A stretch of 10,494 bases of DNA from the NCBI GenBank assembly GCA_002439285.1, contig DJTQ01000168.1:1-10494 (forward strand), written 5' to 3'. The notes under the pieces are model-generated. The model ran no database searches. It was not told the origin of the DNA and was given only the letters and a program-made list of their open reading frames with translations. The DNA is from Paenibacillaceae bacterium UBA6304. Lineage in GTDB: Bacteria > Bacillota > Bacilli > Paenibacillales > Paenibacillaceae. Below are positions 4,944 to 10,494 of this stretch, one piece after another. Every line of letters starts with the position of its first letter. Positions within the stretch are counted from its first letter, which is position 1. Position numbers and translations under genes: made by a program.

Positions 4944-5018
4944 GGAAAACCCCGTAACCACTCTAGTTCAAATGATTATAAATGTAAGCGGGAGAATCCC
5001 ATCGTAAATCTTAAAGAA

Positions 5019-6008
5019 TCATGGTACTCCCTGCGTGCAGTCTGTTTCGAAATATCCGGAGGCCGCCGCATCTTTGGCATTTGCGAATACCTCTACCGGG
5101 TGAAACGGGAGCGGGCAAATGTCGGTAGAGACATATTGGATTCCGGTTTCCGGATGTGTACCGCCATAAATTGGCCGGTTTTTGACCAGTCGACCTCCAC
5201 CAAGCGCATAATTGTTATAGTACTTATTCCCGACAGGAATTCCTTGCAAGAAAACGAGCACGCCTACGTCATCGATGGTGTTATTCCATTCCTCCTGCGA
5301 AATGACCGGAAGGGTGAACCTGTACTGCACACCCAGTTTCCGGATAAATTCATTATGCCGGTTAATGATATCCCCTAAGTCATCTTCAATACTACGGACG
5401 ATCACCGACCGTCGCACCTGTTCGAAGGTTTCTGCATCTTGAAGAAGCGGAATGTTAAGCGATGCCCCAATGGACTCCCGCAAGCCTGTTGCCAGTTCTC
5501 CCGAGACGGGATTAATAACTGTAACCTGTTGATCCAGTGTAAATGATAGACTATTGCCATCAGCATCCTGATATACAAATGGTTTTTTGGGGCGCCAGCG
5601 ATGTTCGGCGACGGGATAACCGTCGTCGCCTGCCCGTTCTTCCATGGCATAAATGAAGTATCCGTCGTAATCAATTACTACTACTGCAGGAATATACTTC
5701 ATAAAAGCCTGCATGGCCAACGTATCATCGGTTAAATTAAAGTTCAGTGCCAATGTATTCTTTAGTGCCGTCAAAGCTGCTTCCTTGTCGGCCCGCATGA
5801 ATTTTGATGATCCGTAGCCCGATTCGTAGGATTGCAACTCATTTCGGTTCAGCATAACCCCCGCATCCTGGGCAGCCGTTCTTAAAGCCGCGGTATACCG
5901 GAGTTGGAGCCGATTTGTTTCTCTAAGCTGTTCCGCATCCCAACCGGAAATCCATAACATCGGACCTACGATCAATACAAAAATGATGGCCCAATCAGTA
6001 ATCTTCAT
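5019..6008 (-). CDS. Tad-locus single-span membrane protein, 329 residues, function unknown
   Basis: Last gene of the pilus operon. One N-terminal membrane helix (about residues 5-23, WAIIFVLIVGPMLWISGW) is followed directly by a heptad-like polar stretch (AEQLRETNRLQLRYTAALRTAAQDAG). A large domain of about 280 residues follows, predicted outside the membrane. Near the C terminus it has STDICPLPFHP and GYFETDC, giving two cysteines that could form a disulphide. I do not recognise a named domain. It resembles the long hypothetical protein found at the end of Bacillota Tad-type clusters and could be a minor pilin, tip protein or assembly factor. The ATG at 6006-6008 overlaps the upstream gene by 14 bases, with GGAGGT ten bases before it, so translation is probably coupled. 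There is no Gly-x4-Glu prepilin site. Confidence 0.8.
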   Translation of the reverse strand: MKITDWAIIFVLIVGPMLWISGWDAEQLRETNRLQLRYTAALRTAAQDAGVMLNRNELQSYESGYGSSKFMRADKEAALTALKNTLALNFNLTDDTLAMQAFMKYIPAVVVIDYDGYFIYAMEERAGDDGYPVAEHRWRPKKPFVYQDADGNSLSFTLDQQVTVINPVSGELATGLRESIGASLNIPLLQDAETFEQVRRSVIVRSIEDDLGDIINRHNEFIRKLGVQYRFTLPVISQEEWNNTIDDVGVLVFLQGIPVGNKYYNNYALGGGRLVKNRPIYGGTHPETGIQYVSTDICPLPFHPVEVFANAKDAAASGYFETDCTQGVP

Positions 6009-6549
6009 TCAATACCATACCTCCGTAGGACATACGTTGCGTGCGGTCGCTTCCGGGAACCAAGCCGAAGACAAAACCGGATAATATATCAAACGGAGAC
6101 CGGGACACTTTGATCAACGTCACGTTAAGATAATCACCGACTTCAAGTTTATATCTTCGTAAGTCCGGGTCATTCCCGGCTAGTGACGAGGGAAACATCA
6201 CCTGAAACATACTTGAAGAATAATTCGCATCATAAACCACACTGAATTCACCTTTGAATGTTGCCGGATCCGCCGGGTCGCCGTATTCGGGATGATATTT
6301 CTTATGGCGGTGTTCCAAATCAATATCATAGACCGCGCCTGTAATCTCCAGTTCGCGGGTGAAATCCTCGTACATCTCCGGTGAGATATATCCCTTGCTT
6401 CGTACGGCATCCGTAAATTGGACTAACGAGTTATGAGCCGACAGTACCCGGAGATCCTCCTCCCGTTGAGCAGACTGGACGGCGGGGAACAGAAATATCA
6501 GAATTACCGCCAGCAAAGCTGCCGCGATCTTTGATAAAGCATTGCCCAT
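5995..6549 (-). CDS. Tad-locus single-span membrane protein (pseudopilin-like), 184 residues
   Basis: An N-terminal helix (about 6-26, KIAAALLAVILIFLFPAV) is followed by QFTDAVRSKGYISPEMYEDF and then TGAVYDIDLEHRHKKYHPEY, a pattern I associate with TadE/TadF-like proteins of Bacillota Tad loci. The C-terminal part is predicted extracytoplasmic and ends with a moderately hydrophobic segment (SPFDILSGFVFGLVPG). Likely a minor pilin or pseudopilin sitting on the TadB/C platform; this is inferred from context, as no catalytic motif is visible. The ATG at 6547-6549 has AAGGGGG six bases upstream and begins 12 bases after the previous stop. Its 3' end overlaps the next gene by 14 bases. The processing site is unclear: the helix starts almost at the N terminus and lacks Glu at +5 of any Gly. 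Confidence 0.78.
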   Translation of the reverse strand: MGNALSKIAAALLAVILIFLFPAVQSAQREEDLRVLSAHNSLVQFTDAVRSKGYISPEMYEDFTRELEITGAVYDIDLEHRHKKYHPEYGDPADPATFKGEFSVVYDANYSSSMFQVMFPSSLAGNDPDLRRYKLEVGDYLNVTLIKVSRSPFDILSGFVFGLVPGSDRTQRMSYGGMVLNEDY

Positions 6550-6561
6550 ATTCCGCCCCCT

Positions 6562-6996
6562 TCAGTTTAGGTAAAAAGACAGCTTAGCCAAACGACCATA
6601 CGCATCAACCAGGGAGACTCCCCTGTAATCTCCATTCAAGTCCAATAGAGTTAAGGCAAATCCAAGATCTCGATCATAGGGCCCGGCTGGAGATAATCCA
6701 TATTCGGCTACATACGGAATTACCTTACCCTTGATGGAGATTTCCGTCTCCTCCAGCTCCCAGCTCCGCAAACCGTACAATATATCTAACCCCGGATAAA
6801 GATCAAAAGCGGAATTCTCTGGATTGTATTCAGTTTCCGATATGGCTACGCTTCGCGTTTGCGTATGAATAATAGGAACGAGGGTATCCAGAATCTCATC
6901 ATAACGCCGGTTATGATCTAGGGTAAGCAAAACAGCCCCAAGACTTAACGAAACAGCTGTGCAAAACCATAGCAGAGTTTTCAGACTGTTCAACAC
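6562..6996 (-). CDS. Tad-locus single-span membrane protein, 144 residues
   Basis: A small protein with one N-terminal membrane helix (about 6-26, KTLLWFCTAVSLSLGAVLL), then DHNRRYDEILDTLVP and a predicted extracytoplasmic domain of about 115 residues rich in Tyr, Leu and acidic residues. I recognise no named domain. Its place in a chain of four similar-topology proteins after the ATPase and platform genes suggests a minor pilin-like or scaffold component. The start is GTG (6996-6994), with a TTG directly after it (6993-6991). AAGGG lies two bases before the GTG and five before the TTG, so either could be used. The gap to the preceding gene is 18 bases and to the next gene 12. Confidence 0.75.
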   Translation of the reverse strand: MLNSLKTLLWFCTAVSLSLGAVLLTLDHNRRYDEILDTLVPIIHTQTRSVAISETEYNPENSAFDLYPGLDILYGLRSWELEETEISIKGKVIPYVAEYGLSPAGPYDRDLGFALTLLDLNGDYRGVSLVDAYGRLAKLSFYLN

Positions 6997-7014
6997 GTCC
7001 CTTCACTCTCCGGA

Positions 7015-7506
7015 TTACGGTATTACCGTTGTCTGAGTAAAAACCAATCCCCGTACAACGTTGGAGTTATCTTTGATCACCTTGGCTTTGAATTTCCCGC
7101 TCGGATTCACGTATTCATTAAGCTTCTCATTCCATGTGTTGCCGATATCCGCCAAACTGGTGCCGCTCACTGAACCGTATTCTTCGTTCGTCAGGGTGCC
7201 GTTGATTTTGAGAACGTCTCCGTACCATTGGCCTAAACTGTTCTTTCCCGTTTTGACTTGTATTCCGAACTCATCCCGGTCCTTAAATTTTCTTAAAGCA
7301 TTCGTTACCTGGGATCCACTGATTGTTGTTTCATCATAAACCGTAAAAGAAGCCTGCGAGAGCTCCGTTTGAATATCAGAGAAATTGTTTTGAGCTGTTT
7401 TTGTTGCTTCTTGGGCTGAAACAAACAGGATTACGACAATAGTAATCAAAGCGATCGTCAAAAAGATCCCCGCCGCCACCTTAAGTGCTGATGATGCATT
7501 ATTCAT
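7015..7506 (-). CDS. Tad-locus candidate filament subunit, single-span protein, 163 residues
   Basis: An N-terminal helix (about 10-30, VAAGIFLTIALITIVVILFV) runs into SAQEATKTAQNNFSDIQTEL, a long amphipathic helix of the kind that packs in type IV filaments. A globular part follows with TISGSQVTNALRKF, GTLTNEEYGS and a C terminus ending in TVIP. No other domain is recognised. It is the first of four bitopic proteins after the TadB/C gene and has the best ribosome site of the operon (AAGGAGG at 7523-7517, ten bases before the ATG). That would fit a subunit needed in many copies, hence the candidate major pilin call. Against this, it is far longer than Flp pilins (50-80 residues), and Gly13 is followed by IFLTI, with no Glu at +5. 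Pilin function is inference from topology and context. Confidence 0.75.
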   Translation of the reverse strand: MNNASSALKVAAGIFLTIALITIVVILFVSAQEATKTAQNNFSDIQTELSQASFTVYDETTISGSQVTNALRKFKDRDEFGIQVKTGKNSLGQWYGDVLKINGTLTNEEYGSVSGTSLADIGNTWNEKLNEYVNPSGKFKAKVIKDNSNVVRGLVFTQTTVIP

Positions 7507-7516
7507 AGATTTACTT

Positions 7517-7523
7517 CCTCCTT
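7517..7523 (-). promoter_or_regulatory. Full-consensus Shine-Dalgarno of the 163-residue gene
   Basis: AAGGAGG on the minus strand sits in the 18-base gap after the TadB/C stop (TAA at 7527-7525), ten bases before the ATG at 7506. It is the closest match to the anti-SD sequence among the operon genes in view. Confidence 0.7.
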
Positions 7524-7524
7524 A

Positions 7525-9603
7525 TTAGATATGTTGAATTTGTTCAAAATAAATGCCCATCTGCTCAAAGCTCATCCAGATCAGCGGAACGACCAAATAG
7601 GCAAACACGAGACAATACATCGGTGCAAAACCGATCATCCGCCCGATCCCCGCTTTCGTATCCAGCGATTTCTCATAATCCAGCCGTCTCCGCTCAAAAT
7701 GGTATGCCATCTCGCTCTCAAGTTCATCGAAGGCGTTGTAAATCGCGATTTTCTCCGCAGCAAGAAGAAGTTTGTCGGCCAGCTGACGGAATTCGTCCAA
7801 CCCGGCTTCTTCTTTCATTTGCCGCAGAGCATCTTCACCGCCGTGGCCGTAGTGGAGTAGGCATTTCTGAAGTGGAATTTTGAAGATGACAGCATACGAA
7901 TGCAGCCACTCCAGAATTTCCTCAACCGAAATCCGTTCCAGTTCCCGCAGAATGGAGATCATCGTTTGGAACTGGTACACCTCTTGTCTCATATCCATAA
8001 GTGACATCTTTCGTTGAAACATCAGCGTCCAGACCGGAACATAATACCCGATCCATCCGGCAACCAGCGATACGAGAAGCTCCCACCATTTCAGATACTC
8101 CGCATTCCAGCGTTCCACCTTCCCCATGACCCGCTCTACCGTCGCATTGAAATTATGGTCGTCCGGCTGTAATCCTTCTTCAGCCCATGACTTGGAGACG
8201 GATGTTGCAACCTTGTCATATTCAAGTTCCCGATTCATCCCGGTCTCCGTCATAATTCGCTTGTCCCTATCGACGATTTCAGTTGCTTCTTTAGCATCAT
8301 CCTGAGATAGGGTTCCAAAGAACACATAGCTTGATGGCGGCTCATTCAGAATCCATGTTCGGTTCTGCAAATGGAGATAAGAAAACGTACCCGCCATAAC
8401 AATCACACAGATCAGAAATAGGACAAGTCGCCTGATTTGTAAGGACTCTACATTTAGATGATGGTTACTATCTTTGAGCAATCTTAGAATCCGCTCATAA
8501 GCGGCGGACTTAGGCCTTGGAGTGAACCAGTCCGAACATTTCCGTACGAGCCTCCATTTCCTCAATGCAATTTCCCACGCAAACCGGTCTTTGCCGGCCC
8601 GATAAACACTTTCTTCCTCGCTCTTCAGCTTCTGAAGCAGCATATAGCAAATAAGAATGATTAGAAAAATACCGATTTTGGTCATTACACCGGTCTTACT
8701 CAAATAGAAGTGATCCATTAGCGGAAAGTTTCTTCGCGCCCAAAGCTCAATCGGCTTGGTAAAAAAAATCGGCACCAAGGCAATCAAATTCAAGCCCTTT
8801 AGCAAATAATCCAGTTTGCCCCGGCGGATCAGATCCAGTTGTATTTCACCCGTTAGACTGGTCAAACCCCGCAAATAGAGCGAACCCTTGTCCCTTTTGC
8901 GGTCCCCAAATTCCATGATCATTCGCGATATACCCGCAAAAGCCTTCAAAAAGCGATTTGGCGCCGTTTCATAATATTTCTCCAGAGCTTCGTCGGGGTT
9001 TACATCTGTTAAAGCTTCATGAATCCTATTGGCATGCAGAGCGACCTCTTCCCCAACGGATTCAACCGATTCTTCAATAGCATCGCTAACCATACCATGC
9101 CTGTGATAGGCTAGCCTGACGGAGCTGAATAAATCCAGCATTTGCTCCAGAAGCTTCGTTTCCAGCCGATTGACATAACCGTCCAGGATCAGCCCTTGAA
9201 TGACCACTGCCGCGATAAGCAATGATAGAAAAAATAACAAGCTCGGATTCATCACCGTCAGTAAGCCGATCACCGTTATGAATGTTCCCGCAATCAGGAA
9301 AACGAACTTCATCGTTTGCCGTCTTAAACTAAATTCGTCGTAAATCTGGACAACCGACAAGCGATATCGGACTTTCAACACATAATAACGCAGCGGCGGC
9401 AGCTTCATAAACAATGCGTAAGACTTCAGAAACAGAGCCGATAATCCGATTCGAATCCACCGGGAGACCGAATTTCCGTCATTGGCGAGGAATATCCCAT
9501 GCTCCTCTTCCCGCTTGGATATAAGCTTGCCCCATCCAAACAGGAGTACAAAACAGCATAAGGACAGGACGACAACGATCATGAGAACCGACTTAAGCTC
9601 CAA
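7525..9603 (-). CDS. TadB-TadC-like fused platform protein of a Tad/type IV filament system
   Basis: About 692 residues from a TTG start. Two tandem halves each hold a cytoplasmic T2SF/GspF-like helical domain. The first is about residues 150-270 (KLLEQMLDLFSSVRLAYHRHG to MIMEFGD); the second about 540-655 (YQFQTMISILRELERISVEE to HFERRRLDYEKS). Predicted membrane helices: about 5-24, 98-118, 121-141, 271-282, 310-325, 393-410, 508-529 and 656-678. A segment of about 100 polar residues (411-507) lies between helices six and seven, predicted outside. In classic Tad loci TadB and TadC are separate proteins of roughly 300 residues forming the inner-membrane platform turned by the TadA ATPase. 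Start: a frame-open ATG at 9651 would overlap the ATPase gene by 59 bases and lacks an SD. The TTG at 9603 has GGAGG seven bases upstream and overlaps only 11 bases, so it is preferred. Confidence 0.85.
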   Translation of the reverse strand: MELKSVLMIVVVLSLCCFVLLFGWGKLISKREEEHGIFLANDGNSVSRWIRIGLSALFLKSYALFMKLPPLRYYVLKVRYRLSVVQIYDEFSLRRQTMKFVFLIAGTFITVIGLLTVMNPSLLFFLSLLIAAVVIQGLILDGYVNRLETKLLEQMLDLFSSVRLAYHRHGMVSDAIEESVESVGEEVALHANRIHEALTDVNPDEALEKYYETAPNRFLKAFAGISRMIMEFGDRKRDKGSLYLRGLTSLTGEIQLDLIRRGKLDYLLKGLNLIALVPIFFTKPIELWARRNFPLMDHFYLSKTGVMTKIGIFLIILICYMLLQKLKSEEESVYRAGKDRFAWEIALRKWRLVRKCSDWFTPRPKSAAYERILRLLKDSNHHLNVESLQIRRLVLFLICVIVMAGTFSYLHLQNRTWILNEPPSSYVFFGTLSQDDAKEATEIVDRDKRIMTETGMNRELEYDKVATSVSKSWAEEGLQPDDHNFNATVERVMGKVERWNAEYLKWWELLVSLVAGWIGYYVPVWTLMFQRKMSLMDMRQEVYQFQTMISILRELERISVEEILEWLHSYAVIFKIPLQKCLLHYGHGGEDALRQMKEEAGLDEFRQLADKLLLAAEKIAIYNAFDELESEMAYHFERRRLDYEKSLDTKAGIGRMIGFAPMYCLVFAYLVVPLIWMSFEQMGIYFEQIQHI

Positions 9604-10494
9604 GGGCCTCCCTCCAATACTTATCTGCAAATTTCTCAAAAGCCGCGGCATCTGTCGGTAACATTTCTTGGGCCATTTTCTCTCGCATCAACGGAGAAAT
9701 CGGGTTTATGGCTACATAATCTCCGTTACGGTACTCAACAATCGCTCTCTCCACATAACTTTCATTCATGCGGCAGCACTCCGTAATCCGTTCTATGTAC
9801 CTGTTCCCTGCATGGTCCTTGCAAAGATGAATATCAAAATCCAACACGCCGGCTACCTGGTACTCGGCGATCTTTTCATCCCGGAACACCCCTGTTTTCA
9901 ACAAAGAATTCCGCAGCGACTCGATAAGATCACGGAACGTTTTTGCGTGATGGGTAAACAGCGTAAACAAACTTGCCACTTGAGCCATCTGAATCATCCA
10001 GGCCGCAACTTCATCCGTCGCTACCTCTCCAAGAATATTGACGGTACCATCCGTTTTTTTCTGTAAATCCAACCCGGCTTGTCCCGACACATACTCCGTT
10101 TCCCGAAAGGTCAAAATGTTTCTCGAGGAATAGATTCTCCGCAAATGAAGTTCAAACGACATCTCTTGTACCCGTAAGGTATAAGAAGGATAAATATGCT
10201 TGACCAGGGCCATGAGCAACGTTGTTTTGCCAGATCCTTGAGAACCCGTGATCGATGTGATGCGGCTTCCCTTCATCAAATATTTCAGCAGTTCGACCGG
10301 TAAATCGGAGTTATTCCCTTGAATCAACCCATCAAGGCTAGCGCTCTTCACATCAAACTTTCTGACGAAGAACGCCCATGACTCTGCGAAGGGCGGTCTC
10401 ACTACGACGACCCGTGAACCATCCTTCAACTCATTTACCTTATAACCGTTAGCTTCAGATAGCTGTCCCGGTAAATTGAATTTATAGATGTTCT
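9593..10494 (-). CDS. cpaF: CpaF/TadA-type secretion ATPase (GspE/VirB11 superfamily), 5' end beyond window
   Basis: About 299 C-terminal residues are visible. The frame stays open to the right edge (…YKFNLPGQLSEANGYK upstream of an internal TTG at 10429), so the start is outside. Seen in order: RVVVVRPPFAESWAFFVRKFD; Walker A GSQGSGKTT (10246-10220); an Asp-box-like stretch VQEMSFELHLRR; a Walker-B region NILGEVATDE; and a His box TLFTHHAKTFRD. The usual GEVRG is GEVAT here, losing the Arg; a strand-helix pattern and Glu are kept. Known for the family: a cytoplasmic hexameric ATPase that powers assembly of Tad pili through the TadB/TadC platform, which is the next gene downstream (11-base overlap). 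The whole downstream set appears co-transcribed from a promoter to the right of the window. Confidence 0.9.
   Translation of the reverse strand, partial: NIYKFNLPGQLSEANGYKVNELKDGSRVVVVRPPFAESWAFFVRKFDVKSASLDGLIQGNNSDLPVELLKYLMKGSRITSITGSQGSGKTTLLMALVKHIYPSYTLRVQEMSFELHLRRIYSSRNILTFRETEYVSGQAGLDLQKKTDGTVNILGEVATDEVAAWMIQMAQVASLFTLFTHHAKTFRDLIESLRNSLLKTGVFRDEKIAEYQVAGVLDFDIHLCKDHAGNRYIERITECCRMNESYVERAIVEYRNGDYVAINPISPLMREKMAQEMLPTDAAAFEKFADKYWREALGA

Follow-up and report, generated by a model that had tools for sequence, protein, structure and literature searches.

A Tad-like operon with four bitopic proteins on Paenibacillus chromosomes and Bacillota plasmids: a candidate filament machine of possible conjugative-plasmid origin

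We analyzed contig DJTQ01000168.1 of Paenibacillaceae bacterium UBA6304 (GCA_002439285.1), a stretch of 10,494 nucleotides (henceforth the window) that makes up the whole of contig C309 in a 4.30-Mb assembly of 452 contigs, 86% complete. The window carries part of an operon encoding a Tad-type ATPase, a fused inner-membrane platform and four small proteins with a single membrane segment each (p163, p144, p184 and p329). The explanation we favor, tentatively and with somewhat less than even confidence, is a Tad-derived filament machine that comes from the backbones of conjugative plasmids and has been domesticated in Paenibacillus under kinase control; both the filament and its function we infer.

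All six genes lie in tandem on the minus strand, starting at the right-hand end of the window, with intergenic distances (in the order of transcription, from the ATPase to p329) of −59, 18, 18, 12 and −14 bases. This is the arrangement described in the original prediction, which was made from the letters of the window alone. That prediction also spoke of a compact six-gene locus, which holds for the genes in the window but not for the locus itself: the ATPase gene is interrupted by the contig end, and contig C19 carries the upstream half of the operon, with proteins of 282, 225, 306 and 510 residues encoded upstream of the N-terminal part of the ATPase. Joined across C309 and C19 by a 151-base identity, the operon is, on the evidence of sequence, one of ten genes, with the window holding its distal part; the same ten genes are found uninterrupted in Paenibacillus vini (L030). 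Extension to the right brought to light a SAF/CpaB-like protein and a kinase–MinD fusion on C19, and no Flp pilin or prepilin peptidase was seen there: what lies immediately upstream is not a canonical tad locus with flp and tadV, but two unassigned proteins followed by the CpaB-like protein and the fusion.

The operon recurs. A tblastn search of 15 named chromosomal loci found the ATPase part, the platform, p163, p184 and p329 in every locus and p144 in ten (gene order was taken from a map of open reading frames (ORFs), in which antisense ORFs mask p163 in three loci). A further 25 loci were found on plasmids, of which 13, chosen for the spread of organisms, were opened and 12 were not. All 13 share one gene order, as judged by size and annotation: a protein in the SAF position, two more proteins, the ATPase, the platform and the four small proteins (with a small additional ORF after the platform in L050). 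Recurrence in 15 chromosomal and 13 plasmid loci excludes a chance arrangement.

Table 1. Features of the window, in the order of transcription (positions on the forward strand).
Feature	Position	Strand	Remark
TadA/CpaF-like ATPase, C-terminal 299 residues	9593..10492	-	N-terminal part on contig C19 (L045:3-1061, minus strand)
Overlap with contig C19	10344..10494		151 bases at the end of the window, identical to those at the start of C19
Fused inner-membrane platform, 708 residues	7525..9651	-	both halves match TadB and TadC profiles
p163, candidate main filament subunit	7015..7506	-	predicted helix 2-50, small strand-rich head
p144, fast-evolving p163 homologue, candidate minor or tip subunit	6562..6996	-
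p184, bitopic, conserved, outside known families	5995..6549	-
p329, bitopic, outside known families	5019..6008	-	predicted helix 3-51, then mixed domain
Weak terminator-like stem directly after p329	4989..5001	-	1 found, 0.4 expected

By its profile matches the ATPase is of the TadA/CpaF type. Among solved structures, a profile built from 14 full-length relatives found CpaF first (1.8e-16, ∼280 positions), ahead of FlaI (1.5e-5), PilT (2e-4) and VirB11 (1.9e-3), as expected of the Tad-type motor that had been proposed. The Pfam T2SSE model is barely above its cut-off on the ATPase of the window (25.7 versus 24.9 bits), and NCBIfam TIGR03819 yields no more than 35.7 of 373 bits. A tree of 26 ATPases places the family in one group (100/100) separate from ten canonical TadA rows, though the long branches that meet there make the placement unsure. 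The platform looks like two fused T2SF-like halves of the TadB/TadC kind, although which half corresponds to which is not settled: with a profile of 29 sequences cut in two, each half matched both TadB and TadC sets (nine rows each) at E values of 1.6e-6 to 1.1e-5 and probabilities of 82–90. With twelve column-shuffled controls, compared with the platform as a whole, E was never below 0.19.

All four small proteins are hydrophobic in one window only, close to the N-terminus, in keeping with the common topology claimed for them from the outset. They share more than this topology: p163 and p144 are homologous by profile comparison (probability 95.8, E 6.7e-9, 123 columns), no relation being detectable between the remaining pairs. 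We defined a prepilin site as the pattern [GAS]x4[ED] followed by 14 non-polar residues. It is absent from all rows of p163 (0/16 and 0/56), p184 (0/14) and p329 (0/14 and 0/53) and occurs in one of 14 rows of p144 (that of L007), whereas of the 18 pilins and pseudopilins taken as controls 17 have it; the reported lack of a Gly-x4-Glu cleavage signature is thereby confirmed. The known subunits used for comparison came from eight tad loci on plasmids and from locus C404 of the same genome. With hhalign, none of the four proteins is detectably related to them: scores against the Flp set were at noise level (no genome-wide Flp search was made), and probabilities against the TadE, TadF and DUF4320 sets were at most 2.3%, these sets (7, 3 and 2 rows) being small enough to miss distant kin. 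A TadF with a doubtful start (L060:9050-9583) is included in the profile sets and excluded from the prepilin controls. To the extent that such small sets allow, the suggestion of non-standard subunits is supported. Pfam identified no prepilin peptidase (TadV/PilD) among the ten operon genes, and neither Flp, TadE/F nor TadV was found with the operon.

Mean identity across the 15 chromosomal loci is highest for p163, at 83.6% (15/15), followed by the C-terminal part of the ATPase (76.2), p184 (58.9), the platform (58.7) and p329 (57.0); values for the four upstream proteins span 36.8 to 56.1, and p144, at 32.5%, is the least conserved. With its high conservation among chromosomal copies, p163 is our best candidate for the filament. 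The AlphaFold models of p163 (pLDDT 83.6, pTM 0.61) and p329 (pLDDT 82.7, pTM 0.72) both begin with a long helix (Table 1), that of p329 ending in the larger domain. The predicted helix of p163 fits a type IV pilin and is no proof of one; solved structures offered no fold match to either protein, which does not of itself exclude the type IV pilin family. In many public records p163 is labelled ‘ABC transporter permease’, very likely a misnomer for a protein of 163 residues with a single hydrophobic segment.

The genome also has further tad-like loci and a type IVa pilus locus, and the operon could in principle be an ordinary Tad pilus that obtains a standard pilin and prepilin peptidase from one of these (C76, C404 or C296), the four proteins being accessory. 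We regard this as quite improbable. The four-protein set recurs together with the motor from Paenibacillus to Butyrivibrio; Peptidase_A24 is missing from all 13 plasmids, as against a presence in 12 of 14 control genomes (the plasmid hosts may have one); and the ATPase family stands apart from canonical TadA, with the reservation about long branches already made.

A relative of the platform is present in 45 of the 59 genomes searched (the window's own genome included): in all 35 of the same genus and in 9 of 23 others of the order. Among the 35, the best match contains an in-frame stop in five, and the only copy in G029 is distant (36%). A phylum-wide draw gave 5 of 398 genomes. Platform matches were found in 25 of 72,556 plasmid records and in none of 50,697 phage records. 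The plasmid hosts are Lysinibacillus, Sporosarcina, Cytobacillus, Alkalihalophilus, Thermobacillus, Cohnella, Paenibacillus and Butyrivibrio, and with the same module on plasmids of eight genera, from Lysinibacillus to Butyrivibrio, the notion of a lineage-specific machine is not supported. Two records from one Paenibacillus strain, NZ_CP013205.1 and NZ_CP013206.1, each hold one end of the operon at the end of the record; their identity is of the chromosomal type, and the two may derive from a single molecule.

On plasmids the operon keeps company with conjugation genes. A VirD4-type coupling protein (T4CP) scored above cut-off on all 13 opened plasmids versus 5 of 14 control genomes, and a Replic_Relax protein, a putative relaxase, was present on ten versus none. 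A VirB4-type model matched 11 of the 13 at E 1e-3, six of them above cut-off, but it also matched 10 of the 14 controls, and its weak matches are little informative. On pCY360, genes annotated as T4CP, PrgI and VirB4 lie within ∼8 kb after the operon. Over the 13 plasmids the distance between T4CP and operon is moderately non-random (Fisher p 0.007; 0.012 without one near-duplicate). Two T4CP queries gave strong matches (identity of 39.9% or more, covering at least 73% of the query, a line drawn after the tables had been seen) in 26 records, of which 20 have the platform; not one of 22 records with weak matches has it. Five of the 25 platform records are without a strong match: both Butyrivibrio plasmids, Cohnella and two chromosomal-type pieces. 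These figures show that the platform is co-inherited with two VirD4 subfamilies; because the records share ancestry they speak for co-inheritance but not for function. The plasmid typing used here called all 25 records non-mobilizable.

A DNA-uptake (competence) pilus is the kind of device for which Flp pili of Micrococcus luteus set a precedent, transformation there being reported as Flp-dependent (PMC4322843, PMC6370729). For the present operon this has very little to recommend it: no competence gene was noticed among the listed neighbors, and the genes to which the plasmid form is linked are those of DNA transfer.

The chromosomal form differs from that on plasmids in its surroundings. No T4CP match was obtained in the window's own genome (86% complete) or in 20 of the 35 same-genus genomes, all of which carry a platform relative. 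In the 15 same-genus genomes that do have a T4CP, the best-matching operon copy is never within 60 kb of it (0/15), whereas 8 of 17 extra copies are (Fisher p 0.003); 11 of these 17 sit in genomes with any T4CP match. The 60-kb limit was set afterwards, and contig breaks can conceal neighbors. In the platform tree the 16 chromosomal platforms form one group (99/98), while the plasmid rows require three changes, and the two Butyrivibrio rows fall outside on long branches. By this grouping the copy in the window is a member of a chromosomal clade that has no coupling protein nearby. We read the chromosomal form as a domesticated plasmid-type machine; the direction of this change depends on the root of the tree, which was placed at the midpoint for drawing only.

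The company that its plasmid-borne relatives keep with T4CP genes could suggest that the chromosomal copy is still a working part of a conjugation system, such as a resident integrated element, and not domesticated. That it should be so is very unlikely given the genomes just described, in which the platform is present and T4CP is not, and given the response regulator found near the operon in all 15 named loci.

This regulator is one of two genes, the other of the ThiF family, that follow the operon in the window and in P. vini. Best blastp hits, with orthology unchecked and the query locus L030 counted in, place the response regulator in the neighborhood of 15/15 named loci and the ThiF-family gene in that of 12/15. 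Beyond the upstream end of the operon are genes matching methyltransferase and AP-endonuclease families. In three of the 15 loci (L031, L034 and L043) an extra ORF of 515–517 residues comes right after p329.

The gene at the head of the operon also sets the chromosomal form apart. Its 510-residue product contains a protein kinase (137 bits, cut-off 31.7), with HRDLKPSN and DFG motifs visible by eye in the P. vini relative, and then a weak MinD-type region that stays below cut-off (AAA_31, 13.6 of 27 bits; in L007, CbiA, 20.0 of 25.4 bits); another L007 protein reaches 17.1 of 27 bits for AAA_31, likewise below cut-off. The kinase part aligns in 15/15 chromosomal head proteins, whereas the kinase core is found in 0/13 plasmid loci: ten of the plasmid head proteins align from residue 251–321 onward, that is, after the kinase core, and three do not align at all. 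The 306-residue protein of C19 has a SAF domain above cut-off (25.5 of 21 bits), as does its counterpart on plasmid L006 (31.3 of 21 bits), and we call it CpaB-like, bearing in mind that a SAF domain by itself does not single out CpaB. Pfam gave no match for the 225- and 282-residue proteins, which are taken as MinD/TadZ-like from their position and degenerate N-termini alone.

Downstream of the operon, eight plasmid loci (L006, L007, L008, L009, L010, L049, L051 and L052) carry a gene for an SLH, stalk-domain or copper-amine-oxidase-N protein together with one for a DUF5704 protein of more than 1000 residues. One gene intervenes before this pair in three of the eight, and a GGDEF gene follows it in five. 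In L050 and L055 the pair is replaced by one very long surface-type gene (annotated at ∼8.8 and 11.1 kb). The open-access literature that we searched holds no mention of DUF5704.

Surface-type genes next to the operon in 10/13 plasmid loci (SLH or copper-amine-oxidase-N plus DUF5704 in eight, a very long gene in two), together with the failure to recognize a major pilin, could point to a Tad-derived device for protein secretion or cell contact rather than to a surface filament: a piston or pseudopilus of the sort known from type II secretion or Myxococcus Kil, in which the bitopic proteins would make up a short pseudopilus or a gated complex. A Tad-like apparatus of this kind is described for Kil, which needs its core genes but not the peptidase KilA (PMC8460266). 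Such a device is nevertheless unlikely in our judgment: no surface gene of this sort lies beside the operon in the window or in the P. vini locus, and a conserved chromosomal p163 with a fast-evolving homologue better fits a polymer with a variable minor subunit. The likeness to Kil lies in the contact-dependent use of a Tad motor with a dispensable peptidase; Kil is unlike the operon in having a secretin, a split platform and pilin homologues, as set out in the same source.

Several other known systems invite comparison. With the Tad (type IVc) pilus the operon shares the CpaF-type ATPase, the two TadB/TadC-like platform halves, the SAF/CpaB-like protein and a putative MinD-type region; it is unlike that pilus in that its platform is one gene, its four bitopic proteins belong to no known family, the Flp, TadE, TadF and TadV genes were not found, and the chromosomal form has a Ser/Thr kinase fused to the MinD-like part. 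Gram-positive tad-like loci termed ‘no Flp_2’ (Imam et al. 2011, PMC3244431), compared here by description only, are alike in combining tad motor genes with unrecognized genes lacking a prepilin signal, and unlike in that they are reported with a tadV homologue and in Clostridium and Desulfitobacterium. Linear plasmids of Cutibacterium acnes are described as carrying a tad locus with conjugation signatures on a Gram-positive plasmid; unlike the present operon, it is presented as a Flp pilus locus (PMC5696575).

On the Lysinibacillus sphaericus plasmid of locus L009, which is presumably pBsph-like, the operon stands beside T4CP and Replic_Relax genes. The copy in the window is unlike those of pBsph-type plasmids in being chromosomal, in its kinase fusion and in having no transfer genes nearby. 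Plasmids of the pBsph type are reported to be conjugative (PMC13239906); an earlier pBsph study (PMC4363355) observed no transfer, lists five homologues of type IV secretion genes and a pilus assembly ATPase, and notes this ATPase as possibly involved in transfer.

As for other pilus loci in the genome, a second tad-like locus occupies positions 1-8998 of contig C404 (L047), with gene names given partly from position: a MinD-type protein, a protein in the CpaB position (no Pfam match), a TadZ-like protein, TadA (489 residues), TadB (335), TadC (293), a 75-residue Flp-like protein also without the prepilin pattern, a 167-residue protein and a DUF5050 protein. The protein after this last one has no Pfam match and, we presume, resembles the start of the ESX ATPase EssC. 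A third tad-like locus, on contig C76 (L046, 3552-6612), encodes a MinD-type protein and TadA and breaks off at the contig edge in the beginning of another gene. The type IVa pilus locus of contig C296 (L048) has two T2SSE ATPases, and we take it also to encode a prepilin, a protein resembling a platform and one resembling a prepilin peptidase. In Paenibacillus polymyxa A18, a tad locus with separate TadA, TadB and TadC has been reported (PMC6465253).

How might a filament machine of the kind we favor work? Powered by the ATPase, the platform would draw p163 and the homologous p144 from the membrane into a polymer, with the first ∼50 residues of p163 forming the core of the filament. Lacking a site for the prepilin peptidase, the subunits would retain their N-terminus. 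The protein p144 would be a minor or tip subunit, and p184 and p329 may be parts of the assembly apparatus, the base or the tip. The operon family would belong to the backbone of Bacillota conjugative megaplasmids, where it may serve to draw mating cells into contact or to assist the type IV secretion channel. One copy in Paenibacillus would have become a resident chromosomal system, its MinD-like head protein fused to a Ser/Thr kinase, and would probably serve contact or adhesion independently of DNA transfer.

Some observations weigh against this explanation. The fused T2SF-like platform of the original prediction is recovered by profile–profile comparison but not by Pfam, which gives no T2SF match, and no match is detectable between its halves (E 0.13), whereas the TadB and TadC sets do match one another (E 1.4e-17). 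In comparison with the 13 plasmid loci the ATPase is slightly better conserved than p163 (45.4 versus 42.6). The lack of a match between the halves and the standing of p163 on plasmids have both lowered our confidence. The more ambitious proposition, which joins all of the elements into one hitherto unrecognized conjugation-linked filament of Gram-positive bacteria – a Tad-derived motor assembling an appendage for mating out of subunits that bypass the prepilin peptidase, domesticated in Paenibacillus under a MinD-fused Ser/Thr kinase – we consider doubtful. Searches of the open-access literature found no paper treating the operon as a system, which is no proof that there is none.

To our knowledge, the contact between conjugating Gram-positive cells is poorly defined, and retractile pili that might bring it about are not generally known. 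The operon provides a concrete set of genes, on large plasmids and in several genera, with which the question becomes testable. A fused platform bears on the fission of a single protein from which TadB and TadC are described as having arisen (Denise et al. 2019, PMC6668835). If the explanation we favor holds, a type IV filament motor may operate with subunits that have no prepilin site, and a machine of mobile elements appears to have been turned into a chromosomal one.

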